The notes beneath the pieces were generated by a model, which saw nothing but the letters and a program-made list of their open reading frames with translations, ran no database searches and was not told the DNA's origin. A program made the translations under genes and the position numbers. From NCBI GenBank assembly GCA_016201215.1, contig JACQDH010000157.1, positions 1-51,348 of the forward strand: a stretch of DNA of 51,348 bases, written 5' to 3'. This document shows, one piece after another, positions 1,262-28,838 of this stretch (the stretch's first letter is position 1; each line of letters opens with the position of its first letter). Source of the stretch: Acidobacteriota bacterium (GTDB lineage Bacteria > Acidobacteriota > Terriglobia > Acidiferrales > UBA7541).

Positions 1262-1280
1262 CTGACCCGATCTCGGTCAG
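1262..1280. terminator. Small hairpin over the end of the UDP-glucose dehydrogenase gene
   Basis: CTGACC (1262-1267) pairs with GGTCAG (1275-1280) around a 7-base loop, and the right arm overlaps the minus-strand stop codon at 1277-1279. It mirrors the hairpin at 1191-1210 on the other side of this convergent junction. No T-run is present, so a terminator role is only a guess. Confidence 0.25.
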
Positions 1281-2650
1281 GGCGTGGCCGAGCCCGCGGC
1301 GACATCCTGCCGGCCGATGGAGTGGTACTCGAAGCCGAGCTTTTTCATTGCCTCAGGGTCGAGCAGATTGCGCGCGTCGAGCACCAACGGTCGCGCGAGC
1401 GTGTCGCGGATGCGCTGCCAATCGAGCTGCCGGAACTCCTCCCATTCGGTCAGAATCAGGAGCGCGTCGGCACCGGGAGCGACGGCGTAGGGGTCCCGGT
1501 CGTAACCAATCTGCGGAAACACCTTGCGGGTCTTTTCCATCGCCTCCGGATCGCACGCACGCACTTGCGCGCCCTCGGCGAGCAGCCGCCCGATCACTTC
1601 GATGGCCGGAGCATAGCGGATGTCGTCAGTATTGGGCTTAAACGCCAGCCCCAAGACGGCGATCTGCTTATCCTTCAGCACCCAGAGCGCCCGCCGGACC
1701 TTGTCGAGAAATTGATCGATGCGGCGCTTGTTGACCTTTTCGGCTTCCTTCAACAGCCCAAAGTCCACGCCAGCACGCTCGGCAAGGCGAATAAACGCCT
1801 GGACATCCTTCGGGAGACAGAAACCGCCGAAGCCCAGGCCCGCGCGCAGGAACTGCTGCCCGATCCGCGGATCCAGGCCCATAGCGCGAGTGACCTCTTC
1901 AACGTTGGCACCCAGCCGCTCGCACAGGTCGGCGACGGCATTGGCGTAAGAAATTTTCAGCGCAAGGAATGAATTCGAAGCGTGTTTGATCAACTCAGCG
2001 CTGTTGATCGTGGTCACCAGCAGTTGGGGCGCCGTCGGCGGGCAGATGGGCCTGTGCACCGGGCAGCGGAAGCGGCCCTCGAGGACGGGGCGGTAGATTT
2101 CGCGCAACTGGTGCTCAGTGGCCGAGTCTTCCACGCCGACGACGATGCGGTCCGGATTGAGGAAATCCTCGACGCCGGTGCCTTCGCGCAGAAATTCTGG
2201 ATTCGAGGCCACGCGAAACGTTACCCCGAGATTGCGGCGATACACCGCCAGCACGCGCTTCAGCTCCTGGCCCGTCTGCGCCGGCACGGTGCTCTTCTCA
2301 ATCACCAGCGTGGGGACACGCGCTTCGGTAGCGATCAGTCGGGCCACGTTGTCAATCGCCGAAAGGTCCGCTTCCCCGTTTTCGAGTGGCGGTGTGCCCA
2401 CGCAGATGAAGATGGCCTCGCCGGCGCGGACGGCCTCACCCACGTCGCCGGTGAAGCGGAGCCGGCCAGCGTTGCGGCTACCCGCCAGTATCATGTCCAG
2501 ATAGGGCTCGTAGATGGGCAACCGCCCGGCCTCGAGCATGGCGATGCGCGCGGCGTCGTTATCGGTGCACACGACGTGATGGCCGACCTCGGCCAGGCAT
2601 CCGCCGGTCACCAGACCGACATATCCGCACCCAATGACTGAGATTCGCAA
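1277..2650 (-). CDS. ugd: UDP-glucose 6-dehydrogenase
   Basis: Oxidises UDP-glucose to UDP-glucuronate in two NAD-dependent steps. With the start at 2650 it has 457 residues, usual for the family. Visible: N-terminal Rossmann GCGYVGL (7-13), CVGTPP with NGEADL (83-96), and the catalytic cysteine Cys278 in FGGFCLPKD, then FKPNTDD of the C-terminal NAD domain. The open frame runs on upstream to 2770, but TTG at 2650 is preceded by GGAGAG (2658-2663) and the protein starts there with the first beta strand, so I reject the 40-residue extension. A loop near residues 196-203 reads CPVHRPIC, a Cys-rich insertion absent from short family members. It feeds the convergent decarboxylase and possibly the AsnB-like uronate amidation step. 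Confidence 0.93.
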   Translation of the reverse strand: MRISVIGCGYVGLVTGGCLAEVGHHVVCTDNDAARIAMLEAGRLPIYEPYLDMILAGSRNAGRLRFTGDVGEAVRAGEAIFICVGTPPLENGEADLSAIDNVARLIATEARVPTLVIEKSTVPAQTGQELKRVLAVYRRNLGVTFRVASNPEFLREGTGVEDFLNPDRIVVGVEDSATEHQLREIYRPVLEGRFRCPVHRPICPPTAPQLLVTTINSAELIKHASNSFLALKISYANAVADLCERLGANVEEVTRAMGLDPRIGQQFLRAGLGFGGFCLPKDVQAFIRLAERAGVDFGLLKEAEKVNKRRIDQFLDKVRRALWVLKDKQIAVLGLAFKPNTDDIRYAPAIEVIGRLLAEGAQVRACDPEAMEKTRKVFPQIGYDRDPYAVAPGADALLILTEWEEFRQLDWQRIRDTLARPLVLDARNLLDPEAMKKLGFEYHSIGRQDVAAGSATP

Positions 2651-2780
2651 GCCGCATCTCTCCTTACGATTTCGATCGTTCAGTGTCCGGAAGCTAGAAG
2701 CGTCCCATTCTCGCCCATCCGGCGCGCGCGGAAAAGAGAAAACTCGCTCTTCCCCAGGCGGGTTTCTCAAACCGAAAGGC

Positions 2781-4511
2781 TTAGGATTTTGTCAGGGAAA
2801 AATTGCCGATGATCAAGGCATCAATCCCAGAACAAAAGTAGCTCCGCACGGCGTCCCGCGGCGTGATCACAAGGGGCTCACCAAAAAGGTTGAACGAAGT
2901 GTTGACCAGCAGCGGCGCGGGCGCATGCTCGCCGAAGCGCTTCAACAGTCGCCAGAGCAGAGGATTGGCCTCGCGCTCGACCACGTGCAGGCGCACGCGA
3001 TTCTCCGGCAGCAGAAAGTCCTTGACCAGGTCGAGCGCGTCCGGCCGCACCCAGCCCATTGTGGCCATGAACCGTGCCGATGGACGACACTCGAAGTAAC
3101 GGTTGCAATCCTCTGCGGCCACGGAGATCGCAAAGGGCCGAAACGTCTCGCGGTGTTTCACATACTCGTTCAAGTTCTCTTTGACGTAAAGCGCCCAGGG
3201 CGAAGCCAGCAGGCTGCGATTACCCAGGGCGCGCGGGCCGAATTCCGCGGCGCCCTGGAACCAGCCGATGATCTTGCCGGCTTCGAGCTGCCGCAGGGCC
3301 TCCTCGATCTTTTGCTCCTCGCCCTCGTGCCAGCGATAGCGGGCCTTGCAGTTCTCCACCACCTGCTTGATCTCCTGATTCGAGTAGCTCGGCCCCCAAG
3401 AGACGTGTGGGGGCGGGTCGAGCCGCGGCATGCCTAACTGTTCGTGCCACACCAGCCACGCAGCCCCCAGGGCGGTACCCTCATTGCCGGCGGCAGGCTG
3501 CACGAAGACCTGCTCGAAGCCGCTGCTCTTTTCCACGGCCGCGACCAACAGAGGGTTCAAGAAAAGCCCTCCCGCAAGGCAGAGCGCGCAGGCGCCCGTC
3601 TTCTGCCGATAGGCTTCAGCAAGTTCCGCGACGACGGTGGCGCAGGCCTGCTGCACGCTGGCCGCCAGTTGGCGCCGCAGCGTCTCGCTGAGTGCAGCGC
3701 CGCGCGACCCCTGGCGCTCACCAGAAGAAGCTGGCGGTTCGATGCCCAGCCGGCGGTAAAACTTCTTCGAGAAGGCGATGCGGCCCGCCAGGCCGCGATT
3801 GAAGTAGCTGGAATGCAGGCGCGGCAAGGCGCCGGGGGTCGGGCGCAGCATTTCCAGAAAAAGGTCTTTGAACATAGGCTCGCCTTCCAAGCTCAACCAC
3901 TGCGTTTTGTGCTCGCTCCGGTGCGGGGCGAAGCCGAGCAGGTCAGTCACCTGCGTGAACACCCAGCCGAGCGAGTGCGGGAACGGGATCGTGCGCAGCG
4001 TGCGGATGCGGTTTCCTTCGCCCAGCGCCACCATTCCCGAACGGCCGTCGCCCTGCTCATCGAGGGTAAGGATGATCGCGTTCTCGGCCGGAGAAGCGTA
4101 GTAGGCGCTGGCCGCATGGCAGAGGTGATGCTCAAGCCGCAGGACGCGGCTTCCGGGGACGTGCGCCATGAGTTTCAGGACGCGGAGATTGTTTAGCTCG
4201 CGGCCCAACTCACCCAGCGCCTTGGATTGATAGTAGCCGCTGGGAACCGGAGCGAAGGGAGTCAATCGCGCGCGGAGCCAGGCCTGTCGCGCCCAGGCAC
4301 GCACGGGACGGCTGGCCACGGCGACATAGGGAACGTCGTGCCAGCCGATGCCCACTTTTTCCAAGCAGAACTGGATGGCCTTGCGGGGGATGCCGCCCAG
4401 TCTGCGCGAGCGCCCCAGCTTGCTTTCCTCCATCGCCGCAAGGATGCCCGTGTTGCCGAGCAGCGCCGCCGCCGAGTCATGTGCGAGGCCTGAGAGTCCA
4501 AGAATGTACAT
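2781..4511 (-). CDS. Carbamoyltransferase, NodU/CmcH family (copy 1)
   Basis: Protein of 576 residues that by family transfers a carbamoyl group from carbamoyl phosphate, via carbamoyl-adenylate, to a hydroxyl of a sugar or sugar-like acceptor. The N-terminal Kae1-like half shows the metal-binding His128-His129-x2-His132 and the nucleotide motif DEQGDG (151-156); the middle has LAGGLFLNP; the C-terminal half has GWFQGAAEFGPRALGNR and NTSFN. The LAGG segment departs from the LAGGVALN form of the other two copies, so the three are old paralogues, not recent duplicates. It lies 67 bases after the flavoprotein gene and 130 bases before ugd, in the same direction. The acceptor cannot be read from sequence; position in a glycan locus points to a sugar hydroxyl. 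Confidence 0.88.
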   Translation of the reverse strand: MYILGLSGLAHDSAAALLGNTGILAAMEESKLGRSRRLGGIPRKAIQFCLEKVGIGWHDVPYVAVASRPVRAWARQAWLRARLTPFAPVPSGYYQSKALGELGRELNNLRVLKLMAHVPGSRVLRLEHHLCHAASAYYASPAENAIILTLDEQGDGRSGMVALGEGNRIRTLRTIPFPHSLGWVFTQVTDLLGFAPHRSEHKTQWLSLEGEPMFKDLFLEMLRPTPGALPRLHSSYFNRGLAGRIAFSKKFYRRLGIEPPASSGERQGSRGAALSETLRRQLAASVQQACATVVAELAEAYRQKTGACALCLAGGLFLNPLLVAAVEKSSGFEQVFVQPAAGNEGTALGAAWLVWHEQLGMPRLDPPPHVSWGPSYSNQEIKQVVENCKARYRWHEGEEQKIEEALRQLEAGKIIGWFQGAAEFGPRALGNRSLLASPWALYVKENLNEYVKHRETFRPFAISVAAEDCNRYFECRPSARFMATMGWVRPDALDLVKDFLLPENRVRLHVVEREANPLLWRLLKRFGEHAPAPLLVNTSFNLFGEPLVITPRDAVRSYFCSGIDALIIGNFSLTKS

Positions 4512-4578
4512 CTAGCCGACCATCGGAAAGAACCGGCGAATGCCCGCTGCAGAATAAAACATCCTGGGGGAAACTGCG

Positions 4579-5742
4579 CTAGTCACGACCGCGGCGGGAA
4601 AAGGAGCCTCTGGCGAGCAGGCCGCGAAGCCCGAGCAGCAGCAGCCGGGGTTGATTAACGCAGAGATGCCAGAGGACGCGAGCCGCGTCGTCGCGCGAAT
4701 AGACGCTGAGCGAGCGTCGGGCCGAAGCGTTCAGCAGATCCACCAACCGGCTGTACTCGGCCTGCTGGAAGTGGTGCAGCGTCTTGCGGATGAGCAGGTG
4801 CAAATCGAGTTCGCGGCGCAGCGCGCGCAACTCGCGGCTGCGCCCGCCGTTCAGGATCGCTTCGGCTACTCCCAGCGCGCCGCGAAAGCCGGTGACAATC
4901 CCGCCGACGGTGGTCACTTTCACCTGCGCGGCGGCATCGCCGACCAGGTAAACGCGCCCCGCGCCCACGCTGCGCCCCACCGGCACCCCCCACTTGTACA
5001 CTGGAATCTTCGCGCCCTGGAAGGAGAGTGGCTCGAAGCGGCGCTTTTCGAGGAATGTTTCGAGGCAACGGCGGGTTTCCTGGCCGTCTTCGCCGATCAG
5101 GCCGAGCGCGCCCTGCGTCGGCGACTCGGGGATCAGCCAGTAAAAATAGGGTGTGTCTTCCGGCACGAACCATACCCGCACCGTGCCTGGCGGATACCCC
5201 GCAGGCAGCGGCACAATCGCCTGAATCAACGGCACGGTTTCCTGCCGCGGCCAGCCGGCGGCCTGCGCCACCTTGCTCAGGGCGCCGTCGGCCCCGACCA
5301 CAGTTTCGGCAGGGATCTGCTCCTGCCTGCCGTCCCGGGCGCGCTCCACGGTCAAGCTGAGACCCTTGCCGTCCCCTTCGAGGCCCACGAAGCGCCGCCC
5401 GAATTCCAACTGCGCTCCGGCGCGCTGTGCCTGCTCGGCGAGCCCGCGAATGAGGTTGGCGCGCTCGATGATCAGGTCGGGCCGCTCGAGTTGAACAGCC
5501 GCCGCCCGGCCGTCAGTGAAGAGTTCAAACTGCCAGATCTCATTGACGATGGAACTCTCACTCACCGGACCGAGCAGGTCGCGCATTCGGCTGGTCACAA
5601 TGAGCGTGCGCGGGGTCGGGTCCAACTGTTCAGCCCACTCCAGCACCCGAACCGGACGGCCCGCGCGCGCCAGAAGACCGGCGGTGAAGAATCCGGCAGC
5701 CGATCCACCCACCACGGCAACCGGCCGGTGGCCTTCCTTCAT
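4579..5742 (-). CDS. FAD-dependent oxidoreductase, geranylgeranyl-reductase-like
   Basis: Flavoprotein of 387 residues. It has the FAD motif VVGGSAAG (10-17), VGADGALSKVAQ in the middle, and VYLVGDAAAQVKVTTVGGI near residue 270, the GD motif that binds the FAD ribityl chain. The FYWLIP segment, the GVPVG before the GD motif and the helical tail match the geranylgeranyl reductase family better than the flavin halogenases. Known members saturate isoprenoid double bonds of chlorophyll, archaeal lipid or quinone side chains. Here it sits between a carbamoyltransferase and a polyprenyl-phosphate sugar-phosphate transferase, so reduction of the lipid carrier is possible, but that is inference; an unrelated quinone or lipid role is equally open. 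Start ATG at 5742 has no strong ribosome binding site. Confidence 0.75.
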   Translation of the reverse strand: MKEGHRPVAVVGGSAAGFFTAGLLARAGRPVRVLEWAEQLDPTPRTLIVTSRMRDLLGPVSESSIVNEIWQFELFTDGRAAAVQLERPDLIIERANLIRGLAEQAQRAGAQLEFGRRFVGLEGDGKGLSLTVERARDGRQEQIPAETVVGADGALSKVAQAAGWPRQETVPLIQAIVPLPAGYPPGTVRVWFVPEDTPYFYWLIPESPTQGALGLIGEDGQETRRCLETFLEKRRFEPLSFQGAKIPVYKWGVPVGRSVGAGRVYLVGDAAAQVKVTTVGGIVTGFRGALGVAEAILNGGRSRELRALRRELDLHLLIRKTLHHFQQAEYSRLVDLLNASARRSLSVYSRDDAARVLWHLCVNQPRLLLLGLRGLLARGSFSRRGRD

Positions 5743-6047: not shown

Positions 6048-7097
6048 CTAAGCAGGCTTCTGACGCGGCTGCTGGCGTTCGTAGGGAGCGCGCTCAAGAA
6101 GTGCCACCACGACCAGCACAGCCACAACCGTGAGCGCCCCCAACACATACCCCTGGCGCGCGGACAGGCGGCTGAGGACGAGCGCAAGGATGCCAAACAC
6201 CGCGCCCAGGCCGTAAAGCGCCAGCACGGCCCGGCGCTGGCCCAGACCCAGGTTGGCCAGCCGGTGCGCGGTGTGGTCTTTGCCAGGCGTGGTAAAGGGC
6301 AGAAACCCGCGGCGGGAACGCGAGATGGAGACCAGCGTGGTATCGAAGATGGGGACGCCCAGGATCATGACCGGGATCATCCAACTGGTCTCGTGCGGCA
6401 AACTGGTCAGGCGCAACTTCAGCCCGAGCGTGGCCATCAGGAAGCCGAGCAACATTGCGCCGCCATCGCCCATGAAAATCTTGGCGGGCTTGAAGTTCCA
6501 CCGCAGGAAGCCCACCGCGGCGCCGAGGACCGCCGCGGCGAGTGTGCTGACCAGGACCTGGCCGCTCCAGGTCGCGAAGACAGTAAAAAACACCGAGGCC
6601 ATGGCCGCTACACCCGCGCACAGGCCGTCCATGTGATCGAAGATGCTGAAGGCGGCGGTGATGCCCACGACCCAGAGGAGTGTCAGACCAGCGTCAGCGA
6701 CCTGAGCCGCGAGCCCTGGCCGGATGGCCTCAAATAGTTGGACGCGAATGCCCGCGGCTATCAGGATCACGGCAGCCAGTGGCATGCCGACAAACAATTT
6801 GATCTGATGATGTAGCAGGCCGCGGTCGTCGAGAATCCCCACCAGCGCCACCAGGGTCGCTCCCGCAAAAATGCCGACCATCTGCGCGCGGGCTTGGCCG
6901 CCCATCGACACAACAATGGCCAGCACCACACCGAGATAGATGGCCAGGCCGCCGAGCAGCGGGATGGGCGTCAGATGCACCTTGCGCGGGCCGGGATGAT
7001 CCACCATACCCATGCGCAGCGCCAGCGCGCGGACCGGCACAGTGAGGCTGAGGGAAGCAAGCAGGGCGACGGTGAAAGCGATCAGAACCGGCGGCAC
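6048..7097 (-). CDS. Polyprenyl-phosphate sugar-1-phosphate transferase (WecA/TagO/MraY superfamily)
   Basis: Polytopic membrane protein of 349 residues that by family starts lipid-linked glycan synthesis, moving a HexNAc-1-phosphate from its UDP form to undecaprenyl phosphate at the inner face of the membrane. Visible: PRKVHLTPIPLLGG (38-50), the Asp pair Asp90-Asp91 in GILDD, the Mg-binding MDGL (156-159), FMGDGG with Asp211, and the substrate loop HTAHRL near residue 277. The usual NxxNxxDN before DGL is changed: the Asn positions are Ala, Ser and His (AAFSIFDHMDGL), which may affect substrate choice. Start is GTG at 7097, with GGAGAGC just upstream; 24 bases after the epimerase gene. This is the only initiating transferase recognised in the window. 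Confidence 0.85.
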   Translation of the reverse strand: MPPVLIAFTVALLASLSLTVPVRALALRMGMVDHPGPRKVHLTPIPLLGGLAIYLGVVLAIVVSMGGQARAQMVGIFAGATLVALVGILDDRGLLHHQIKLFVGMPLAAVILIAAGIRVQLFEAIRPGLAAQVADAGLTLLWVVGITAAFSIFDHMDGLCAGVAAMASVFFTVFATWSGQVLVSTLAAAVLGAAVGFLRWNFKPAKIFMGDGGAMLLGFLMATLGLKLRLTSLPHETSWMIPVMILGVPIFDTTLVSISRSRRGFLPFTTPGKDHTAHRLANLGLGQRRAVLALYGLGAVFGILALVLSRLSARQGYVLGALTVVAVLVVVALLERAPYERQQPRQKPA

Positions 7098-7121: not shown

Positions 7122-8153
7122 TCAACGTTCGGTCAACATCTTGTCCAGGATCCGTTTGACTTGCTCGCGGTCCTTGGTCTTGTAATACCAGTCGATGGTG
7201 TGGCGCAAGCCTTCCTTGAACATCACCTGCGGCTCCCAACCCAGCAACCGCTTGGCCAGGGAATTGTCCGCCACGCGGTTGAGCGGCCCAGTGGGCATAT
7301 CCGGGCGCAGCTTGATCTCAGCCCTGTGGCCGGTGCATTCGAGCACCATCTTCACCGCGTCAATGACGCGCACACGCTCCATCGTGCCCAGGTTGACGGC
7401 CGTGCCGTCGTCGATTTTCTCCGCGCTCAGGATGGTCCCTGAAACGATGTCGTCGATGTAGGTCCAGTTGCGGATCTGCGTGCCGTCGCCCCAGACTTCA
7501 AACGGGTTTTGTCCCACAAACGCCCGCGCGATCATGGCGATGACCGCGTGGTTTTCGACGCCTCGCGGGCCGTACACGGTGAAGTAGCGGCACGACGCCG
7601 CCCGGAGCCCGTGTTCCCGAGCATAGGCCTGCAGGGTGAACTCAGCCATCAGCTTGGCCCAGCCGTACATGTTGTCAGCGTCGTTGGGACCTTTGGTCAG
7701 GTCCTCAGTCAGGTAGATCTCTTTGTTTACATCGGACTGCAAGAAGTTCGGATAGACGCAGCCAGACGACGCGAAAACGACTTTCTTGACCTTGGCCTTC
7801 AGCGCCTCGGCAAACACCAAGCCGTCGAGAAAAAAGTTGGAGGCCGGGCCGGCCTGGTGGAGGTCCACGTAGCCGCGCCCGCCGTGGTCGGCTGCCAGGT
7901 GGAATACCGTGTCGATGCCCTCCATGGCCGCGCGCGTGATGCCCGGCTCGCGCAGATCGGCCTGCAGAAAATCCAGATGTTCGTTGGCCAGATGAGTGCG
8001 AATGTTCTCCAGTCGCCCGCTGGTCAGATCGTCCACGACGCGCACCGTGGCGCCGCGCTCGACCAGCCGGTCCACCAGAGTGGAGCCGATAAACGAAGCC
8101 CCACCGGTGACCAGCACTTTCCGATTAGTCCACATCGTTGCCCCGGGGTTCAC
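7122..8153 (-). CDS. NAD-dependent nucleotide-sugar epimerase/dehydratase
   Basis: Extended SDR enzyme of 343 residues with GGASFIG (17-23), SSGCVYP (129-135) and catalytic Tyr163-x3-Lys167 (MYGWAK). The AADHGGRGYV segment after strand 4 resembles GDP-mannose 3,5-epimerase and GDP-fucose synthase relatives, and the C-terminal half (WGDGTQIRNWTYIDD) is the standard substrate loop. The exact sugar is not predictable. GTG at 8153 overlaps the stop of the upstream glycosyltransferase gene by four bases (GTGA) and has GGAGGT about 9 bases upstream; an ATG at 8135 is an alternative that removes six residues. Translation is probably coupled to the preceding gene. Confidence 0.85.
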   Translation of the reverse strand: MNPGATMWTNRKVLVTGGASFIGSTLVDRLVERGATVRVVDDLTSGRLENIRTHLANEHLDFLQADLREPGITRAAMEGIDTVFHLAADHGGRGYVDLHQAGPASNFFLDGLVFAEALKAKVKKVVFASSGCVYPNFLQSDVNKEIYLTEDLTKGPNDADNMYGWAKLMAEFTLQAYAREHGLRAASCRYFTVYGPRGVENHAVIAMIARAFVGQNPFEVWGDGTQIRNWTYIDDIVSGTILSAEKIDDGTAVNLGTMERVRVIDAVKMVLECTGHRAEIKLRPDMPTGPLNRVADNSLAKRLLGWEPQVMFKEGLRHTIDWYYKTKDREQVKRILDKMLTER

Positions 8154-9346
8154 CGCTTGCCGACCTCCTCGATGGTTTCCATAAAAATTTTCAACTGCGT
8201 CACTCTATCATAAGTCCCGGCGATCTCCCGCGCGCGCCGGCCCATGTGCGCAAGTTGTGCAGGGTCGCGAGCCAGCACCCGCACGGCCTCGGCAATGCCT
8301 TCCGGGTCGTCGGGATCGGCAGCGATACCGCAACCGGTGCGGCGCACGATGCGCACCACGTCGCTGTGCTCGGGTGCCACGGCCAGCACCGGCCGCCCCG
8401 CCGCGAGAATCGGATAGAGCTTGCTCGGCACGACCACTCCTTCGAGACCCCGCTTCACCGTCACCACGTGCAGGTCCCCGGCCGCCAGCACGCAGGGGAT
8501 CTGCTGGGGCGGCCGAAACGGTAGGAACCGGACAGCAGTACAGCCTGCTGCAGAGGCTTCGATCTGCGGGCGCACTGCTCCGTCGCCGACAAAGACCAGC
8601 CCGACCCCGTCGCTTTGCAGCAACCGAGCCGCACGCGTCAGGGTGTCCCAGGCGCCATAGAATCCCAAGTTGCCTGCGTGCAGCAACACAAAGGGAAAAC
8701 CGCAACGGATCTCCTGCGCCACCGGATCGGTCGCTGGAGGCACGGTCTCCGGCAATGCCACGCCGTCGCGGACAACAGCCACGCGCGCCGGGTCCACGCC
8801 CTTGGCGACGATGCGGTCGCGCATATCTTCGCCCAGTACGATGACCCGAGCCGCGTGCCGCAGGGCACGCCTGTGCATGTTTTCCCAGCCGTCCACCCAC
8901 CGGCTTGGGCGGACAATCCCGCCGCCCAGGGCCATGTCGGGATACAGGTCGCGGATGTTGTACACAAAGGGGCGTCCCGTTAGCTTGGCCACCATGGCGC
9001 CGACGATGCCCGCAAACGGCGGGTCGGTCATGGCCAGAACAACGTCGGCGCGGATGGCCAGGGCGCGCGGCACCGCTAGGGAAACATAGGTCAGGTAGTT
9101 GCTCACGCGGCCGCGCATCCGGAAACGCGGATAGGTGGTCGAACCCACGCGCTCTACGGTGATGTTGCCATGCACCTCGCGCCGCAGGAAGTAATAGGGA
9201 TGCCGCTCGGAGGGATCATAGGAGGGGCGCCCGGCCAGAACCGTGACCCGGTGGCGTTCGGCCAGCGCTTCCGCCACCATCGCCGCCATCTTCGCGGTGG
9301 CAGAGATGTCCGGCGGGTAATATTCATTCAGGAGAAGAATGTGCAC
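8150..9346 (-). CDS. Glycosyltransferase family 4, WbuB-like
   Basis: GT-B fold transferase of 398 residues, a cytoplasmic or membrane-peripheral enzyme using a nucleotide sugar. The N-terminal acceptor domain begins ILLLNEYYPPDISATAK, has TDPPFAGIVGAMVAK and FVYNIRDLYPD, the pattern of WbuB/FnlB-type HexNAc transferases. The donor domain contains LLHAGNLGFYGAWDTL and VPSKLYPILAAGRPVLA near the C terminus, including the E/D-rich nucleotide-sugar contact region. GTG start at 9346; followed by the epimerase gene with a four-base overlap and preceded by a 127-base gap after the second carbamoyltransferase. Acting as the second transferase after the WecA-like enzyme encoded two genes downstream would fit, but this is inference. 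Confidence 0.85.
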   Translation of the reverse strand: MHILLLNEYYPPDISATAKMAAMVAEALAERHRVTVLAGRPSYDPSERHPYYFLRREVHGNITVERVGSTTYPRFRMRGRVSNYLTYVSLAVPRALAIRADVVLAMTDPPFAGIVGAMVAKLTGRPFVYNIRDLYPDMALGGGIVRPSRWVDGWENMHRRALRHAARVIVLGEDMRDRIVAKGVDPARVAVVRDGVALPETVPPATDPVAQEIRCGFPFVLLHAGNLGFYGAWDTLTRAARLLQSDGVGLVFVGDGAVRPQIEASAAGCTAVRFLPFRPPQQIPCVLAAGDLHVVTVKRGLEGVVVPSKLYPILAAGRPVLAVAPEHSDVVRIVRRTGCGIAADPDDPEGIAEAVRVLARDPAQLAHMGRRAREIAGTYDRVTQLKIFMETIEEVGKR

Positions 9347-21177: not shown

Positions 21178-21277
21178 GCTCCTCCGATGGGGAGAGGATG
21201 ACCCGCCCGAGATTATGTCCTCGCGCGGGCCGCACTGCAAATAAGAAAGGTTATCCTGCTGCTTCCGCCCCAGACTT

Positions 21278-22498
21278 TCAACTGCCCCGCTCAGGTCCCC
21301 GAGGCTCTCTCCAACCCGCCGTCCGCTCGACAGCCTCGACCAGCGTGGCAACGTATTCCCGCGGCGACCACGTTCCCATTCGCCTGCGCGCTGCCTCCCC
21401 CATCTGCCGGAGTCGCTCGCAAACCGGCAAGACTTCACGTAGGACTTGGGTCAACGCCCCCACATCCCCGCAGGGATAAACAAAACCTGTCTCGCCATCG
21501 CGCACGAGATCGAATTTCGCACCCACTCGGTCGCTGACCACCGCCGGGCATCCGCAAAGCATGGCCTCGTTCACGACGAGACCGAAGGCTTCGTGCTCGG
21601 AAGGTAGGACGAGTAGGTCGGCCGCGCGGTACACACCGGGGAGCTGAGATTGATTCACGAAGCCGAGCATCCGAACCCGCTCCGTGATCCCCAGCGCTTG
21701 TGCTTGGCGCTCCAGGTCCGCACGGAGCGGTCCATCGCCGGCGATCACGAGGAACGAATCCTTTACGTTTGCCTTTGCAAAGGCCTCCACAAGATCCTGC
21801 GGACGCTTCCACGGTTGGAGTTTTGCACAAAAGAGTACGACAGGCGCGGCAGGAGGAACGCTCCAATTCGACCGAATAGCTTCTCGGTCAACCTGAGCGG
21901 CTCGTGCACTCCACCAGTCGTTGTCCACGACGTTTCTCACCATGAGAATGCGATCCTTCGGCAGACCCAGAGATTTCAGGTAGTCCACTGTGCCGCTGGA
22001 ACCCGCAAGAATCACGTCCCCCAACCCCAGGATGTGCCGGACGAGTAACTTCTTCAGCCTCTGTCGATAGGCAGATCTGTTTTTCCAAGTCCGCAAGCTG
22101 TGTGCGTCCGTAGTGAAAATCAGGGGCACACGACACCACTTAGCCGCCAGGATTGCCACCCAGGCGCTCGCATAGAAATACCCGCTGACCCAAACAGAAT
22201 CGAATGCGCCTTGGCGCACAAGGTTCCAGAGCCCCGGATTGAACAGGCCGAAGAACCGTCCCAAACCGGGTCGCAGCGCCTTGTTCGGCACCTGCGTCCA
22301 AGAATAGGCGTCCAGAACAGGAGTATCCCATGAAACTTCGACGCCGAACTCCGGATCCAGCCCCGATTCCGCACCCTGGAGGCTGCAATATGCAACTAGT
22401 AGGTCGACCCGGGGGTGCTCGGCAATCCGCCGAAACACCGGAGAAGAGTAATGCACGAGGTGAGAGCAGACCACAAGAACTCTGTATCGGCGGCTCAT
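21278..22498 (-). CDS. Glycosyltransferase family 4
   Basis: GT4 enzyme of 406 residues. It starts MSRRYRVLVVCSHLVHYSSP, has FTTDAHSL in the acceptor domain, and in the donor domain VVLFCAKLQPWKRPQDLVEA, FLVIAGDGPLRADLE and VLPSEHEAFGLVVNEAMLCGCP with the conserved Glu pair. ATG at 22498 is taken as the start, since the 50 upstream codons are shadow-like; there is no clear ribosome binding site. It is the first gene of the minus-strand block left of the lone plus-strand methyltransferase, so it needs its own promoter or read-through. Confidence 0.87.
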   Translation of the reverse strand: MSRRYRVLVVCSHLVHYSSPVFRRIAEHPRVDLLVAYCSLQGAESGLDPEFGVEVSWDTPVLDAYSWTQVPNKALRPGLGRFFGLFNPGLWNLVRQGAFDSVWVSGYFYASAWVAILAAKWCRVPLIFTTDAHSLRTWKNRSAYRQRLKKLLVRHILGLGDVILAGSSGTVDYLKSLGLPKDRILMVRNVVDNDWWSARAAQVDREAIRSNWSVPPAAPVVLFCAKLQPWKRPQDLVEAFAKANVKDSFLVIAGDGPLRADLERQAQALGITERVRMLGFVNQSQLPGVYRAADLLVLPSEHEAFGLVVNEAMLCGCPAVVSDRVGAKFDLVRDGETGFVYPCGDVGALTQVLREVLPVCERLRQMGEAARRRMGTWSPREYVATLVEAVERTAGWREPRGPERGS

Positions 22499-22875
22499 CG
22501 GTCGGTGTTCAATACCCGATGTTTTCTCGGGGGCGGGTTGTACCGGGTGGGCCCCGAGTGTCATCGGTGCAATGCCAAAACCCACTTGACGCACTCCATG
22601 ACCAACGCCTTTTCCCGAGCGGAGGTTGAAAAGTCTCACTAGAAGCATGCCCTCAAGGAAAATACCGCACCAAAGCTCTTATCCCAAATCGACTCCGCAG
22701 TGGCAAAGTGCTCTATACTACAGCAGCTTGCGCGATGCCTCGCGTTCTCAGATTCTGCTCCCCCCGCACCGAGAGGTCGCAAACCGCATGAGCAGCGTGC
22801 CTCACGAAGAACAAAAAGATATGATAACGTTTGTCTGCTTTCTTGCAGCACACACCGCAGAGATGGATACGACAG
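22499..22875. other. Divergent intergenic region with reduced GC
   Basis: 377 bases between a minus-strand glycosyltransferase start and a plus-strand methyltransferase start. It must contain promoters for both directions. TATACT at 22714-22719 is a candidate plus-strand -10 element, but no convincing -35 lies 16-18 bases before it. I found no RNA gene, repeat or coding region. Confidence 0.4.
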
Positions 22876-23757
22876 ATGAGTTTGCCATCCAAACTGCGCT
22901 TTGCTCGGAGAATCATCAAGCACAGGCTCCACCATCAGCCTTGTGTGTGCCCCTATTGTGCCGGGCCGTCCCCACTGAAGTTGATGAAGAGGAAGAAGTT
23001 CATCCTGGATATTCTCGGATGCGAGGCTTGTGGATTGATCTTCCGCTGGCCGACAGAAAGCCCCGAAGAGGCTGACGCTTATTACCAAGACGAGTTCTCG
23101 CCCAAGAGTCCCCAAATTAGTTTGCCCAACACAACTGAACTAAATAAGCTGTTACAAAGAAACTTCGCTGCGACCCCGCTTGACCTCGGACCGAAGATCC
23201 GGCTCTTAAAGGCCATCTGCCCCAGCGGGCGTGTACTCGACTACGGCTGTTCTTGGGGCTACGGAACATACCAACTGGCCCAATGTGGTTTCCAAGCGAC
23301 CGGTTTCGAAATTTCAAGACCTAGAGCTCAGTACGCGAGAAAGCATCTCGGGTTACAAGTTATCGATTGTTTCGAGGAGCTCAAAGCGTCTCCCCGAAGA
23401 TCATTCGACGTCATTTTCAGTCACCATGTCCTCGAACACTTACCGAATCTTAAGGATGGCCTCGACCTGATGGCTCGTCTCCTTACCGACGGCGGTCTCA
23501 CGTTTCATGTCCTCCCTAACTTCACGGGAAAATCAGCAGTCAGCGGAATGTGGTTGCACTGGATCGGAGAAGAACATCCGATTGCTCCGACGATTGATTT
23601 CTTCGCTCGTAATTTGCCCAAGCATGGATTCGGCCAGATCCGTTTTGCTTCCAGCCCCTTCGACGATGCATTGACGAACGCCCTGCTACAAAACGGCACG
23701 AAGGCCCTCCAGACCGATGGAGATGAGCTGCTGTTGCTCGCCTCAAAAGTGTCCTGA
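22876..23757 (+). CDS. SAM-dependent methyltransferase with N-terminal zinc-finger-like segment
   Basis: Class I methyltransferase of 293 residues. The N terminus carries two Cys pairs, Cys25-x2-Cys28 and Cys49-x2-Cys52, like the zinc ribbon of sugar or metabolite methyltransferases; the SAM site is VLDYGCSWGYG near residue 118, then FEISRPRAQYAR and SHHVLEHLPNL. ATG at 22876 is chosen; a TTG at 22831 would add 15 residues. It is the only plus-strand gene between 1.2 and 44.9 kb, and hand counts of 60-base lines inside it gave 48, 52 and 60 percent GC, below its neighbours. This suggests later insertion. Ends 12 bases from the convergent methyltransferase gene. Confidence 0.82.
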   Translation: MSLPSKLRFARRIIKHRLHHQPCVCPYCAGPSPLKLMKRKKFILDILGCEACGLIFRWPTESPEEADAYYQDEFSPKSPQISLPNTTELNKLLQRNFAATPLDLGPKIRLLKAICPSGRVLDYGCSWGYGTYQLAQCGFQATGFEISRPRAQYARKHLGLQVIDCFEELKASPRRSFDVIFSHHVLEHLPNLKDGLDLMARLLTDGGLTFHVLPNFTGKSAVSGMWLHWIGEEHPIAPTIDFFARNLPKHGFGQIRFASSPFDDALTNALLQNGTKALQTDGDELLLLASKVS

Positions 23758-23769: not shown

Positions 23770-24765
23770 TCAGGGTTGCTTTCCTTTGGCATTGATGCCA
23801 TTGAAGCCGGTCTTCATCTGGATGTCGACCAGGCCGGCCTCTGCAAACCAAGCCCTCACATCCTCGATGTTTTGCGGGTGATCGTGGACAGGCGACAGCA
23901 TATCGAGTGCGCTCAGCATCTTGACCTCTTTGAGTTCCTCATCGGTGTATTCAAGTTTTGGCTTATGTGAAATCGGCCCAATGGGGATCAGATTGCCGAT
24001 CGGTTTGCCCACGACTGGAACCTGGTAGAGGGCCTTCTTCAGCTCGAACGCCGGCGGGATGGTCACCCTCAGCAAGGCGTGGATCTTCCGGGGACCCATC
24101 CAGGTCACGAAGGGCCGCACCCAATACTTCAGCGCCGGCACGAACCGGTTGCGCTGGTACACATCAATGACGATCTCCCCGCCGGGGCGCAGGTACGGCA
24201 CCAGGCTCAGGAAGGCTTGCTTGACGTCCGGGCAATGCTGCAACACGCCCATGCAGAAAATCTTGTCGAACGTCCCCGGCCGCAGAGGAATCTTGTAGAT
24301 GCTGGCCTGAAAAATGTGGACGCTCTCCGCAGTGCCGTTATTTTTGAAATTCGCTTCAATCGAATTGCTTAGGTCAAAGGAGAAGACCTCCGCGCCGGTC
24401 TCCAGGGCAATCTGGGTGAACCGGCCCATCCCGCACCCCGCTTCCAGGATCCTCTGCCCTTCCATCCGCGCGGGCCAGCCGGTGGTGGCATAGAACCGCT
24501 CTCGGCTCAAGTCGTTGTGCATGACCCTGTCGAGCTGCAGCCGGTCAAACCGGTTCCACTGATAGCCGAAGGAGGCCGCGTACTCTTCCGAGGGAACAAA
24601 CCGCGGCATCGAACGCAGGATGGGAAAGGTCGCCGAGCACCCGGTGCATTCGAGCAGACCTTCCCGGATCCTCCCGTTGGAAGAGGCGCCCGGCTCCGCG
24701 TGGGCCAATCGAAGCGCGGCCCGGCATTCGGGACAGGCAAATGATTCGAGCGCCTTGCGATTCAT
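23770..24765 (-). CDS. SAM-dependent methyltransferase with Trm112-like zinc ribbon
   Basis: Protein of 331 residues. An N-terminal zinc-ribbon (Cys11-x2-Cys14 and Cys40-x2-Cys43, with ATFPILRSMPRFV after it) is the Trm112-like module, followed by a class I methyltransferase domain: ILEAGCGMGRFTQ near residue 108, FSFDLSNS, and MGVLQHCPDV. The C terminus is a separate helical part. The substrate is likely a glycan or lipid-linked sugar by context. Start ATG at 24765 with GAGGAAG about 10 bases upstream; longer reading from 24885 overlaps wecB and is rejected. Follows wecB by 37 bases. Confidence 0.85.
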   Translation of the reverse strand: MNRKALESFACPECRAALRLAHAEPGASSNGRIREGLLECTGCSATFPILRSMPRFVPSEEYAASFGYQWNRFDRLQLDRVMHNDLSRERFYATTGWPARMEGQRILEAGCGMGRFTQIALETGAEVFSFDLSNSIEANFKNNGTAESVHIFQASIYKIPLRPGTFDKIFCMGVLQHCPDVKQAFLSLVPYLRPGGEIVIDVYQRNRFVPALKYWVRPFVTWMGPRKIHALLRVTIPPAFELKKALYQVPVVGKPIGNLIPIGPISHKPKLEYTDEELKEVKMLSALDMLSPVHDHPQNIEDVRAWFAEAGLVDIQMKTGFNGINAKGKQP

Positions 24766-24802
24766 CTCCTCGAGTCTTCCTCTCGCTGTCAGCCCGTTTT
24801 TC

Positions 24803-25921
24803 TCATCGTCCAATCGTCCAGGCTCGCTCGCGGCTGCTAGCGAGCAGCACATCCACGATCCGCTGGCTGGCTCTTCCGTCACCAAAAGGATTCGGGCCGA
24901 CAGGAAGTCCGTCGCCGCGGCGTCTGGCCAGCCATTGCCGGGCGCTGGTCACAATCGCTTCCCGGGAGGTTCCCACCAACTGCGCCCATCCCGATTCAAC
25001 GGCTTCCGGTCGCTCAGTCACCTCGCGCAGCACTAGGACCGGAGTGCCGATACTCGGCGCCTCTTCCTGCACTCCCCCCGAATCGCTCAGGATCAGCTCT
25101 GCGCGCTTCATGAGGTGCACGAACTCGGGATAGGACAGTGGATCGGTCAGCACGGTGCGCGGCTGGCCGTCGAGAAGGTCGAAAACCGTCTTTCGCACGG
25201 AGGGGTTTAGATGCACCGGGAAAACTACAGTGATGTCCGGATGCGTCTGCACCAGCTCTCGAACGGCCCGGCAAATCTCCTGCAGTGGCGGACCAAAACT
25301 CTCCCGGCGATGCGCGGTGACCAGCAACACTCGCCCGGCCAGCCCCGCCAGACGCGAGTCGGAGAAGACCACCGCGCGGCGCAGGATGGACAGGAGAGCG
25401 TCCACGACCGTGTTGCCGGTCAAGAACACCCGCTCGGCCGGCACTCCTTCCTTCAGCAGGTTCTCCCGCGCTCGCTCGGTGGGAGCGAAGTGAATGTCCG
25501 AAAGCACGCCCGTCAACCTTCGATTCATCTCTTCCGGAAACGGGCGAAACTTGTCCTGAGTGCGCAGGCCCGCCTCGACGTGGGCGACGGCGGTGCGCTG
25601 GTGAAAACTGACCCAAGCCGCCGCGAAGGCCGTCGTGGTGTCGCCCTGCACTAGGAGCCAGTCCGGCCGGGTTGTCGCGATGACCGGAGCTAGCTGCTCG
25701 AGGATCCGCGCGGCGACTTCGAGCGGCGATTGGTTCTCCTGCATCACATCGAGGTCATAGTCCGGAGTGATGCCGAAGTCCGCCAGCATCTGGTCGAGCA
25801 TGTCGCGGTGCTGCCCTGACACACAGACGTTGACCTCCAGACCGCGCTCGTTCGCCGCCTGGATGACCGGCGCCAGCTTGATGACCTCCGGCCTTGTGCC
25901 GAAGACCGTGAGTATCCGCAT
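24803..25921 (-). CDS. wecB: UDP-N-acetylglucosamine 2-epimerase (non-hydrolysing)
   Basis: Cytoplasmic enzyme of 372 residues, the family length, interconverting UDP-GlcNAc and UDP-ManNAc. Visible: TVFGTRPEVIKLAPV (5-19), GDTTTAFAAA, HVEAGLRT, PEEMNRRLTG, VTAHRRESFG and SDSGGVQEEAPSIGTPVLVLRE-type active-site loop with TERPEA. ATG at 25921. It lies between a GT4 gene (15 bases) and a methyltransferase gene (37 bases), so ManNAc or a derivative is likely part of the glycan. No ManNAc dehydrogenase (WecC) was recognised; Ugd is the only member of that superfamily here. Confidence 0.94.
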   Translation of the reverse strand: MRILTVFGTRPEVIKLAPVIQAANERGLEVNVCVSGQHRDMLDQMLADFGITPDYDLDVMQENQSPLEVAARILEQLAPVIATTRPDWLLVQGDTTTAFAAAWVSFHQRTAVAHVEAGLRTQDKFRPFPEEMNRRLTGVLSDIHFAPTERARENLLKEGVPAERVFLTGNTVVDALLSILRRAVVFSDSRLAGLAGRVLLVTAHRRESFGPPLQEICRAVRELVQTHPDITVVFPVHLNPSVRKTVFDLLDGQPRTVLTDPLSYPEFVHLMKRAELILSDSGGVQEEAPSIGTPVLVLREVTERPEAVESGWAQLVGTSREAIVTSARQWLARRRGDGLPVGPNPFGDGRASQRIVDVLLASSRERAWTIGR

Positions 25922-25936
25922 TATCTCGTTCCCGTC

Positions 25937-27127
25937 CTAGTTCGAGCGGAGCATCACCGCGGCCATTTTCCGTGCGAGCTCGTTCCAGTCGTAGGGTTCG
26001 GTCAGGGCGTCCCACGCCGGGGACCACTGCGATTCCCGCGCCCGGCAGACTGCATCCACCCAGGCCTCTACTTCCAGGTCAGCTAGAAAAATATTCGGCC
26101 ACTGCAGTCGCTGCCAGGTGCGCAGGGGCGTCGAGACCACGAACTTTCTGCACGCGCTGTACTCGACGATCTTGATCTGGAACGCCAGTTCCGTCCCCAG
26201 CGTTTTTTCTTGTGCCAGGATGCCGAGATCGATGGCGTTGAAATAGGCCGCGACTTCCGCCGGCGCCACCGGACCGGTCCAGACCACACCCTCGGAGCGC
26301 GCCCCCTCGAGCAGCGACCTCCAGTGGTCTGCGGGTCCCACAATCAGCAACGCGGCGTGGGGGATGCGCCGGCGAACGGCCTGAAACACCTCAACGACAA
26401 AATCCACGCCCGTGTAGGGCCCATGGTTTCCGATATAGCCGATCACATACTTGCCGGCCATTCCCAACCGTTGCCGTAGGGCTCCAATCTTCTCGGAGTC
26501 GAACGAGCGGAGCACGTTGAGGTCGGCGCCGTTGGGCACGGGAAGCGCATCGATCCCGCACTCTGTTTTCAACTTTTCACACAGCGGCTCGGAGACGGCA
26601 AAAAAACCCTGGGCCTGCCTCGCCACGTCCTTCAGCCGCGCACGCACCGCGTCGGAATACTCCCGAGACTTGATCTCCTCGGGAAACCAGTCCACCACAT
26701 CGAAAAACGTCTTGACGTCCGCGCAGCGGGGCAACCGGAACGTATCCGAAGCCAGGAGCACGTGAGTGATTTCATGCGCAGCAATCACTCCGTCAAGGGC
26801 GCGCCCGTTGAACGCCCGGCTGAGCGCATGCGCCTGCTCCGACCCGACCGCACGGTGCAAGAGAATCGGCTGGAGGACAGGCGCCTCCACGTAGGCGACT
26901 CCATCCGCGCGGCGGCTCAGCCGCCGCGAGGTCACCGCTGATCCCAGCGCGGTGCGAAACTGCCTCCAGCGGCGGCGGAATGCTGAGCGGCCGTCCAGAT
27001 GCAGCGCGTCGGTCCACTTCAGGCAATAGACATCGAACGACTCGGTCAGCCTGCGGGCAATTTCGATTTCCCGGACGCAGATGTCATCCGCATAAATGTG
27101 CGGCACCACAAGGAGTCTGGGCTTCAT
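25937..27127 (-). CDS. Glycosyltransferase family 4-like
   Basis: Protein of 396 residues. The C-terminal half is GT-B like: YVIGYIGNHGPYTGVDFVVE, ALLIVGPADHWRSL, GPVAPAEVAAYFNAIDLGIL and FQIKIVEYSACRKFVVS, where the second conserved acid and Lys-Glu follow the GT4 pattern loosely. The N-terminal half is divergent. ATG at 27127 is preferred, with AAGGT a few bases upstream; the 48 codons above it overlap the carbamoyltransferase end. Probably adds one sugar; donor unknown. Confidence 0.78.
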   Translation of the reverse strand: MKPRLLVVPHIYADDICVREIEIARRLTESFDVYCLKWTDALHLDGRSAFRRRWRQFRTALGSAVTSRRLSRRADGVAYVEAPVLQPILLHRAVGSEQAHALSRAFNGRALDGVIAAHEITHVLLASDTFRLPRCADVKTFFDVVDWFPEEIKSREYSDAVRARLKDVARQAQGFFAVSEPLCEKLKTECGIDALPVPNGADLNVLRSFDSEKIGALRQRLGMAGKYVIGYIGNHGPYTGVDFVVEVFQAVRRRIPHAALLIVGPADHWRSLLEGARSEGVVWTGPVAPAEVAAYFNAIDLGILAQEKTLGTELAFQIKIVEYSACRKFVVSTPLRTWQRLQWPNIFLADLEVEAWVDAVCRARESQWSPAWDALTEPYDWNELARKMAAVMLRSN

Positions 27128-27170
27128 CTTGACCTTGCTCGGGCCAGGACCCCGCTGAACTTTCCACCCG

Positions 27171-28838
27171 TCATTTCTCCACCAGATAGGATCCGACCAC
27201 CAGGCAATCCATTCCCGAGCTGAAGAACGTGCGGATGGCCTCGGTCGGCGAGCAAACAATGGGTTCGCCACGCAGGTTGAAGGACGTGTTCATGATCACC
27301 GGCACGCCGGTGCGTTCGCCGAACGCTTGAATCAGCCGCCAATAGAGCGGATTGACATCCGGTTCAACTGTCTGCGGGCGGGCGCTGCCGTCCACATGCG
27401 TCACCGCGGGGATGACGCTGCGTTTCTCCTGCTTCACCGGGCTGGTGAGGATCATGAAGGGCGAATCCCAGGCGCTTTCGAGGTACTCCGGCGCGGCTTC
27501 CGCGAGCAGTGAGGGTGCAAACGGGCGCCACCACTCACGGAACTTGACCGCATGATTCACTTTGATGGTCATCTCCGGATCACGCGGGTCCGCCAGAATC
27601 GAGCGGCTGCCCAGCGCGCGCGGACCAAACTCCATGCGGCCCTGAAACCATCCGACAATTTTTCCGTCCGTCAATAGCTCGGCCGTGATCTTCGCCGGAT
27701 CCTCCAGGCGATAGGCGCGCAGCTTGTAGGTGCGCAGAACCTTTTCGATTTCCGCGTCGCTGTACTCCAAACCTAGGTACGCGTGCCGCATCTTGGCCAG
27801 GGGCAAACGCCCATCAGTCTCCAGGTACGGTGCCAGCGCCGCTCCCAACGCCACTCCGTCGTCCGACGCCGCCGGCTGGACGAAAAGACGGTCCACCAGG
27901 CCCGAGGCATAGATCTTTCCGTTCGCTTTCGAGTTCAACGCCACCCCGCCCGCGAGGCACAGGTTGCGGCACCCGGTTTTCTGCACGGCCAGACCCGCCA
28001 ATGCCAGCATGGCCCGCTCGCAGGAATCCTGCACCGCGAAAGCGATGTCCTTGTGGCGGGAGTCAATCTCGCTTTCCGGCACCCGGCGCGGGCCCAGCCG
28101 CGCGATGATGCCCGCGGAATCGTCGGCAAGCAGGAGCCGCGAGTCCACGTGATAGAGCTCGTGGTTGAGCTGCATAAAATCACTCACGTCCACGCCCGGC
28201 TGGCCGTAGGGCGCCAGACCCATCACCTTCCATTCATCGCTATTGGGCTGAAAGCCCAGGTACTGGGTGAACTGCGCATAGAAAAGGCCGAGCGAGTTGG
28301 GCCAAGGCACCGTCAGGACATGATCGAGCCTGCCGTCGTGGCCGTACCAGATCGAAGTGGCTTCCCAGGCGCCGCGCCCGTCCAGGACCAGTACAGCCGC
28401 CTCGGAAAAACCCGCATAGCCGTACGCGCTGATGGCATGCGCGAAGTGATGGTCCACATAGCGCGTCCGCGCCTTGGTGGGACCAAAATGATACGTGAAG
28501 CGACTCCCGCCGCCGCCCTGGTGCCACATGCTCAGGAACTGCCGGCCAGAGTTCAAGACATTGAGATAGGTAATGGGATGCTTTCCGGACACAAAGCATT
28601 TCAGGTCGGAGACAAAGGTCTTGTGCGGCTTGGACCAGCCCAGGCAGAGGTAGTCAACCTGCTCGGGCATGATTCCCGCCGCATCCAGGCAGGCCTTGAT
28701 GGCATTGGCAGGAAAGCGCGCGTCGTGCTTGGCACGGCTCACGCGTTCCTCCGCAAGTGCGTACAGCACCTGGCCATCGCGCACCAAGCACGCGGACGAA
28801 TCGTGCATCTGCGAGTAGTTGATCCCCAGGGTAATCAT
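27171..28838 (-). CDS. Carbamoyltransferase, NodU/CmcH family (copy 3)
   Basis: Protein of 555 residues with all family motifs: HHxxH at His130-His131-x2-His134, LDGRGAWEATS, LAGGVALNSKANGKI, GWFQGRMEFGPRALGSRS, THVDGSARPQTV and NTSFNLRGEPIV. It carries an N-terminal insertion (about 78-115) not seen in copies 1 and 2, which includes a glycine run. Expected reaction: O-carbamoylation of a sugar using carbamoyl phosphate and ATP. It follows the broken methyltransferase by 93 bases and precedes a GT4 gene by 43. Confidence 0.92.
   Translation of the reverse strand: MITLGINYSQMHDSSACLVRDGQVLYALAEERVSRAKHDARFPANAIKACLDAAGIMPEQVDYLCLGWSKPHKTFVSDLKCFVSGKHPITYLNVLNSGRQFLSMWHQGGGGSRFTYHFGPTKARTRYVDHHFAHAISAYGYAGFSEAAVLVLDGRGAWEATSIWYGHDGRLDHVLTVPWPNSLGLFYAQFTQYLGFQPNSDEWKVMGLAPYGQPGVDVSDFMQLNHELYHVDSRLLLADDSAGIIARLGPRRVPESEIDSRHKDIAFAVQDSCERAMLALAGLAVQKTGCRNLCLAGGVALNSKANGKIYASGLVDRLFVQPAASDDGVALGAALAPYLETDGRLPLAKMRHAYLGLEYSDAEIEKVLRTYKLRAYRLEDPAKITAELLTDGKIVGWFQGRMEFGPRALGSRSILADPRDPEMTIKVNHAVKFREWWRPFAPSLLAEAAPEYLESAWDSPFMILTSPVKQEKRSVIPAVTHVDGSARPQTVEPDVNPLYWRLIQAFGERTGVPVIMNTSFNLRGEPIVCSPTEAIRTFFSSGMDCLVVGSYLVEK

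Follow-up and report, generated by a model that had tools for sequence, protein, structure and literature searches.

A gene locus for the probable amidation and carbamoylation of surface sugars in a soil acidobacterium

The genes described here probably decorate, as judged from their sequences, the surface sugars of a soil acidobacterium with amide and carbamoyl groups. They lie on one contig of a gp2-like Acidobacteriota MAG (268 contigs); the whole stretch that we analysed, hereafter the window, is 51,348 nucleotides long. On this contig are three class III (NodU/TobZ/GdmN-type) carbamoyltransferases, CT1, CT2 and CT3, and two full-length AsnB-type amidotransferases, AsnB1 and AsnB2, interspersed among GT4-type glycosyltransferases, with almost all genes of the window on the same strand. 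We favour, with a probability of about 0.6, a reading in which the window holds two adjacent surface-glycan modules: a core module (~1.3–22.6 kb) for a glucuronate-containing glycan amidated by AsnB1 and carbamoylated by CT2 and CT1, and beside it a module (~23.8–38.5 kb) for a second glycan, on which CT3 acts as carbamoyltransferase. The reading draws on the protein families and their residues, the presence of Ugd, the linkage of AsnB1 with CT2 and of CT3 with Wzm, the precedent of WbpS, WbqG and PGN_1234, and a locus in Moorena. The genes are as follows.

241..1191, plus strand: SDR-type NAD-dependent sugar epimerase/dehydratase, convergently oriented to ugd and conserved beside the core module
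1277..2662, minus strand: ugd, UDP-glucose 6-dehydrogenase, predicted source of UDP-glucuronate
2781..4511, minus strand: CT1, class III carbamoyltransferase with Asn343 in place of an iron-ligand Asp (GdmN D333)
4579..5742, minus strand: FAD protein, geranylgeranyl-reductase superfamily, that may reduce a polyprenyl carrier
6048..7097, minus strand: WecA-like polyprenyl-phosphate HexNAc-phosphate transferase, predicted initiating enzyme
7122..8153, minus strand: SDR sugar epimerase (GalE/GDP-mannose-epimerase/UDP-GlcA-epimerase-like)
8150..9346, minus strand: GT4 glycosyltransferase, WcaI/WbuB type
9474..11258, minus strand: CT2, class III carbamoyltransferase whose metal ligands are canonical
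11297..13336, minus strand: AsnB1, glutamine-dependent amidotransferase with CT2 as its conserved neighbour
13346..14188, minus strand: TG, transglutaminase-like protein with an N-terminal membrane segment
14188..15402, minus strand: gtA, GT4 glycosyltransferase (HpsP-like)
15381..16508, minus strand: gtB, GT4 glycosyltransferase
16490..17674, minus strand: gtC, GT4 glycosyltransferase
17690..19576, minus strand: AsnB2, second glutamine-dependent amidotransferase, accessory
19582..21189, minus strand: Wzy-type polymerase, HpsL-like, with about 9 hydrophobic segments
21278..22648, minus strand: gtD, GT4 glycosyltransferase
22831..23757, plus strand: methyltransferase in a low-GC stretch, placed between the two modules, where it interrupts the row of minus-strand genes
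23770..24885, minus strand: SAM-dependent methyltransferase
24803..25921, minus strand: wecB, UDP-GlcNAc 2-epimerase (non-hydrolysing)
25937..27271, minus strand: gtE, GT4 glycosyltransferase
27171..28838, minus strand: CT3, class III carbamoyltransferase, part of the second module with the ABC exporter
29640..36435, minus strand: rest of the second module, with FkbM methyltransferases, a GT2, an epimerase, a methyltransferase and 2 proteins without a Pfam match
36351..38456, minus strand: ABC exporter, Wzt (with Wzt_C) and Wzm

A first-pass annotation of this DNA had reported NodU/CmcH-type carbamoyltransferases at 2781, 9474 and 27171, all with intact motifs. Pfam scans bear out the three enzymes, which are spanned in full by Carbam_trans_N and Carbam_trans_C (E values of 1e-38 to 1e-73) and share pairwise identities of 36–42%. 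The HHxxH and C-terminal GPRALG/NTSFN motifs are indeed intact in each, but this cannot be said of the metal site as a whole. The iron ligands of GdmN are H133, H137, D156 and D333 (PMC9633730); a motif alignment matched all four in CT2 and CT3, whereas CT1 keeps the H, H and D ligands and has Asn343 at the position of D333. An Asn occupies this position in 13 of 13 CT1 orthologues scanned as well as in distant members, and CT1 appears from these alignments not to be fully canonical but to represent a subfamily whose metal site is altered. Apart from this substitution the three enzymes resemble TobZ, GdmN, NovN and NodU in having Kae1-like and YrdC-like domains, the HHxxH metal site and the general-base His, which in GdmN is H27 and aligns with H11 of CT1, H10 of CT2 and the His of HDSSA in CT3. 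They belong to the same superfamily as NodU and are not its orthologues: their scores against the NodU model NF041651 (91.9, 176.7 and 157.7 bits) miss its NCBIfam cut-off of 1000 bits. The likely start of CT2 is the ATG at 11258, the listed reading frame beginning at a GTG further upstream.

The two AsnB-like proteins that had been described among the glycosyltransferases, at 11297 and 17690, likewise carry GATase and Asn_synthase domains in Pfam, with a correction to the start of the second: its reading frame is listed at 794 aa, of which the first ~166 aa are non-homologous, and the true MCG start at 19576 gives an AsnB2 of 628 aa. Aligned with E. coli AsnB, both retain the Cys after Met1, the S[GS]GxDS pyrophosphate loop, the GxGGDE glutamate and the synthetase-site lysine. 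Because both also exceed the cut-off of the NCBIfam asparagine synthase model TIGR01536, they could be ordinary asparagine synthetases that lie in a glycan locus by chance. We consider this highly improbable, as AsnB1 is linked to CT2 and glycosyltransferases across genera, the two other AsnB proteins of the genome fall in a different clade, and E. coli AsnB has other motifs around the synthetase site. The best NCBIfam match of AsnB1 is instead TIGR03108 (475.9 bits; 394.7 for AsnB2; cut-off 816.9). WbpS, WbqG and PGN_1234, AsnB-like proteins in or close to TIGR03108, form uronamides (PMC7468200), in agreement with the uronamide residues that the first-pass annotation had proposed. As with these three proteins, an AsnB-type GATase and synthetase here shares a glycan locus with a source of UDP-uronate; the differences are that AsnB1 and AsnB2 score under the family cut-off and that a carbamoyltransferase and a transglutaminase-like protein stand beside AsnB1. 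Since AsnB1 falls under the trusted cut-off of TIGR03108, amino-acid or other carboxylates are also conceivable acceptors.

Over its 268 contigs the genome has four carbamoyltransferases and four full AsnB proteins. This single contig carries three of the former and two of the latter in a gene order that many relatives keep, so the clustering goes beyond chance. We compared 89 genomes of the family, most of them fragmented MAGs, in which the core module is composed of glycosyltransferases, TG, AsnB1, CT2, a further glycosyltransferase, the epimerase, the WecA-like and geranylgeranyl-reductase-like (GG-reductase-like) proteins, CT1 and Ugd. In 51 of the 65 genomes with AsnB1, CT2 is no more than 2 kb away from it; among the remaining 14 are some with CT2 several kb away, some in which AsnB1 is close to the end of its contig, and three (G401, G413 and G423) that have no CT2 beside AsnB1. 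The convergent SDR gene at 241..1191 keeps its position in relatives, with 70–83% identity. AsnB2, on the other hand, is an accessory gene found in 8 of the 89 genomes, in two of which it goes with the exporter contig. Ugd clearly resembles UDP-glucose 6-dehydrogenases (best PDB match 4a7p, 1e-118) and is the sole sugar-nucleotide dehydrogenase found in the window, in line with the earlier proposal that it provides UDP-glucuronate.

The Wzm and Wzt proteins at 36351–38456, the latter with a C-terminal carbohydrate-binding domain, mark the second module as one with an ABC exporter of O-antigen type. The first-pass annotation had assigned all five enzymes to one polymer, and in a fuller form of this reading a single polymer begun by WecA, methyl-capped by the FkbM proteins and exported by Wzm/Wzt bears the work of the three carbamoyltransferases and both AsnB proteins. 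WecA and Wzm/Wzt with Wzt_C can make up a complete ABC-type O-antigen pathway; nearly all the genes share one strand of one contig, and both modules are on one contig in 7 of the 30 genomes with CT3. No family match to a Wzx-type flippase was obtained among the window genes scanned, so that the neighbouring Wzm/Wzt could also serve to export the core glycan, and the locus would then be a single system. The two modules are, however, separable. CT3 is within 25 kb of Wzm in 19 of the 30 CT3 genomes and shares its contig with AsnB1 in only the 7 just mentioned, though AsnB1 is present in 27 of the 30; 38 of the 65 AsnB1 genomes are without CT3. G401 has the CT3/Wzm module and neither CT1 nor CT2, G398 and G406 have the core with no adjoining ABC module, and in G396, of the same genus, the core is on one contig and the CT3/Wzm genes on another. 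A gene of opposite strand in a low-GC stretch stands between the modules, and in most relatives the core has its own Wzy-type polymerase, here the HpsL/Wzy-like protein at 19582–21189. A single polymer is thus possible but unlikely: AsnB1, CT2 and Ugd do form a conserved module, with the same trio in Moorena, while CT3 belongs to the separable exporter module and AsnB2 is accessory. Two modules, found together in at least 7 genomes, are what we favour, and the linkage data predict that one glycan is the substrate of both AsnB1 and CT2 and another that of CT3.

The sequences show directly which genes are present, that their catalytic residues are intact, that AsnB1 and CT2 are linked across relatives and that CT3 can be separated from them; from this we infer, for the two-module reading, substrates, order of steps and polymer structure as follows. 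The WecA-like enzyme would start the core glycan on a polyprenyl carrier, and several GT4 enzymes would extend it with building blocks that include glucuronate from Ugd or an epimer of that sugar. With nitrogen from glutamine, AsnB1 would turn the carboxyl of the uronate into a carboxamide, CT2 and probably also CT1 would O-carbamoylate sugar hydroxyls, AsnB2 would serve for an optional second amidation, and the HpsL-like protein would polymerise the repeat. The second module would make a methylated, ABC-exported O-antigen-type glycan that CT3 carbamoylates. The amidation and carbamoylation chemistry is plausible from the sequences.

A precedent for carbamoyl and carboxamide groups on one sugar-lipid is moenomycin of Streptomyces, in which the C3 carbamoyl of ring F is critical for binding (PMC3608906) and the carboxamides are made with amidotransferases (PMC8778134). 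Instead of a polysaccharide, the core product might be a short lipid-linked oligosaccharide or a phosphoglycolipid whose carbamoylated uronamide resembles ring F. The reduced cores of G406 and G398, with two glycosyltransferases and no adjoining polymerase or exporter, are consistent with such a product, and the GG-reductase-like protein (104 bits against TIGR02032, under its cut-off) could modify a prenyl carrier. We nevertheless regard it as distinctly unlikely, since most core modules have an HpsL/Wzy-like protein and at least three glycosyltransferases, and no domain of moenocinol genes or of a MoeO5/MoeN5-type prenyltransferase was seen among the window genes scanned. The locus differs from that of moenomycin also in its WecA-type start, its usual Wzy-type polymerase and its Gram-negative envelope genes.

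Related gene arrangements occur in the cyanobacterial glycan loci of Cylindrospermum (L070) and Moorena (L071), which share a GT-AsnB-GT-carbamoyltransferase order, followed in Moorena by a UDP-sugar dehydrogenase; TG, WecA and GG-reductase were not seen in the cyanobacterial stretches. The HpsL- and HpsP-like proteins of the window recall the hormogonium polysaccharide system, with matches far under the cut-offs. XrtA/PEP-CTERM exopolysaccharide systems have in common with the window a related amidotransferase, glycosyltransferases and Wzc/Wza-type proteins, but the window proteins match under the family cut-offs and neither an exosortase nor a PEP-CTERM protein was found in the window. The earlier description of the glycan as unusual can be kept for the exact five-gene set, which is rare (4 of 89 family genomes) and not unique, but not for the combination in general: AsnB-carbamoyltransferase neighbourhoods occur in several phyla (11 of 68 non-gp2 loci), and another acidobacterium has three carbamoyltransferases and one AsnB within ~17 kb. 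The kinds of enzyme are known; distinctive here are the side-by-side sugar-making modules and the altered metal site of CT1. Amidated and carbamoylated uronic acids lose charge and are rich in hydrogen bonds. Although the combination is known from moenomycin, we found no report of it as a trait conserved in the surface glycans of soil Acidobacteriota, and literature searches gave no direct account of carbamoylated acidobacterial polysaccharides, of hormogonium genes with AsnB or carbamoyltransferases, or of MoeM/MoeF.

The residues C96, H128 and D143 of TG are invariant. Its AlphaFold2 model (mean pLDDT 71) had no PDB match at E ≤ 0.001 in Foldseek, the best being transglutaminase/cysteine-protease folds at E 0.014–0.06, so TG is assigned to a Cys-His-Asp fold only. 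A lasso-peptide-like B/C pair of TG and AsnB was rejected, the lasso cyclase model giving 209 bits against a cut-off of 525 and TG matching PF01841 and having a membrane segment. It is a long shot that CT1 represents a carbamoyltransferase class of its own, marked by an Asn-containing (3+1) metal site, and that, with the AsnB1-CT2 pair and the membrane-anchored TG, it serves an undescribed doubly carbamoylated uronamide glycan, possibly joined by TG to peptide or protein. In the CT1 subfamily nature provides a test of how important the fourth iron ligand is in class III carbamoyltransferases.

The window is a complete contig (C255, 51,348 bases) of a MAG that is 80.6% complete in 268 contigs, and CT2's named relatives, at 66-76% identity, come from MAGs of soil Acidobacteriota, of which several bear the label gp2 and one 'Candidatus Acidoferrales'. 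Pfam domains in all five proteins bear out the first-pass annotation's three carbamoyltransferases (CTases) and two AsnB-type amidotransferases, surrounded by GT4-type glycosyltransferases (GTs).

2781-4511, minus strand: CT1 (Carbam_trans_N and Carbam_trans_C)
9474-11258: CT2 (same domains)
27171-28838: CT3 (same domains)
11297-13336: AsnB1 (GATase and Asn_synthase)
17690-19576: AsnB2 (same domains as AsnB1)

The listed AsnB2 ORF has about 166 surplus N-terminal residues without homology, the true start being the MCG at 19576. Because the whole genome has only four CTases and four full-length AsnBs, finding three and two of them on this contig marks a real cluster. Pairwise identities (36-42% among the CTases, 39% between the AsnBs) rule out recent duplication and indicate old subfamilies.

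We mapped the window's proteins onto the loci of relatives, assigning orthology by identity. A core module recurs, comprising an HpsL/Wzy-like protein, the GT4 genes gtC, gtB and gtA, often a transglutaminase-like protein (TG), AsnB1, CT2, a WcaI-type GT, an epimerase, a WecA-like enzyme, a geranylgeranyl-reductase-like FAD protein, often CT1, Ugd and a convergent SDR gene. AsnB1 orthologues occur in 65/89 genomes of the family, with CT2 within 2 kb in 51; among the other 14, CT2 lies several kb off in some, AsnB1 lies near a contig end in some, and G401, G413 and G423 have no CT2 beside AsnB1. These three retain TG-AsnB1-gtA-gtB without CT2. TG (13346-14188, minus strand) adjoins AsnB1 and has an N-terminal membrane segment and an invariant Cys-His-Asp; its predicted structure gave weak transglutaminase-like matches and nothing stronger. 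The conserved gene between the WecA-like gene and CT1/ugd encodes the FAD protein (4579-5742, minus strand), which may reduce the polyprenyl carrier. Given the reduced core loci of G406 and G398, some species may use the core to make a short glycan linked to lipid.

CT3 keeps different company. A Wzm orthologue lies within 25 kb of 19 of the 30 CT3 orthologues (a count that leaves out partial copies at contig ends), and although AsnB1 is present in 27 of these 30 genomes, most genomes compared being fragmented MAGs, the two share a contig in only seven; CT3 is absent from 38 AsnB1 genomes. The same-genus genome G396 has the core on C212 and CT3/Wzm on C155, and G401, in 10 contigs, carries CT3/Wzm and TG-AsnB1 on separate long contigs and lacks both CT2 and CT1. 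Within the window the two parts are separated by a methyltransferase gene on the opposite strand, where GC is low (0.54 at 22-24 kb). We therefore conclude that the region comprises two adjacent glycan modules; a single polymer for all five enzymes, as first proposed, is not supported. The modules might still supply one shared export route, as the scan of the window's genes turned up no flippase.

GdmN binds iron through H133, H137, D156 and D333, with H27 as general base (PMC9633730). Equivalents of all five are present in CT2 and CT3; CT1 retains the general base, the two histidines and the counterpart of D156, whereas its residue at the D333 position is Asn343. Since Asn occupies this position in 13/13 CT1-type sequences scanned and in more distant members from other acidobacterial families, CT1 belongs to a separate, conserved subfamily, and a damaged copy is ruled out. 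Loci of this subfamily are the window, L002-L012, L028, L030, L047, L134, L137 and L171 (G265:C1:10000-29000), the last with tandem genes for one Asn-type and one Asp-type CTase. Aligned with E. coli AsnB, both AsnBs retain the N-terminal cysteine, the GGDE glutamate, the synthetase-site lysine and the pyrophosphate loop (SSGLDS in AsnB1, SGGTDS in AsnB2).

Functional assignments throughout are based on sequence and gene order. Ugd resembles UDP-glucose dehydrogenase (4a7p, 1e-118) and is the only sugar-nucleotide dehydrogenase found, which would make glucuronate or one of its epimers the obvious carboxylate for amidation. AsnB-like glycan-locus proteins make uronamides (WbpS, WbqG and, by deletion, PGN_1234; PMC7468200). 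The WbpS/WbqG-type model TIGR03108 is AsnB1's top NCBIfam match, scoring below cut-off, and in a tree of sampled AsnBs both proteins cluster with cyanobacterial AsnBs, away from the genome's other two. Together these points suggest that AsnB1 amidates a uronate residue. CT2, and probably CT1, would carbamoylate the core glycan, and CT3 a second glycan exported by the ABC transporter. Moenomycin, a glycolipid that bears carboxamides as well as a carbamoyl group (PMC3608906; PMC8778134), is a precedent for the combination.

Such a nitrogen-rich glycan had been expected to be unusual, which is only partly right: the full gene set is rare, unlike the pairing of an AsnB with a CTase. All five genes occur in 4/89 family genomes (G000, G396, G400 and G405), whereas an AsnB-like gene lies near a CT2 homologue in 11/68 loci outside gp2, cyanobacteria included; a Moorena locus has the order GT-AsnB-GT-CTase-UDP-sugar dehydrogenase. 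AsnB2 is in 8/89 family genomes; two of these, G399 and G485, have it on the Wzm-module contig and not adjoining AsnB1. In a phylum sample 172/396 genomes have a CTase, and 3 of 37 multi-CTase genomes have three within 45 kb: this one, G412 and G333, of another family, with an AsnB-like gene between its CTases. That unrelated locus, L168 (G333:C175:29000-48484), holds three CTases and one AsnB-like gene in about 17 kb.

Further envelope genes (40276-51325) encode a Wzc-like kinase, a Wza-like export protein, a Wzy_C ligase, a TPR protein and an S24/S26-like peptidase. Two related minus-strand proteins without Pfam match (31621-32529 and 33682-34665; STPKPFRGH..., ILFGDEEGAAE) look, by eye only, like glycosyltransferases, and relatives also carry the first one in their CT3 module.
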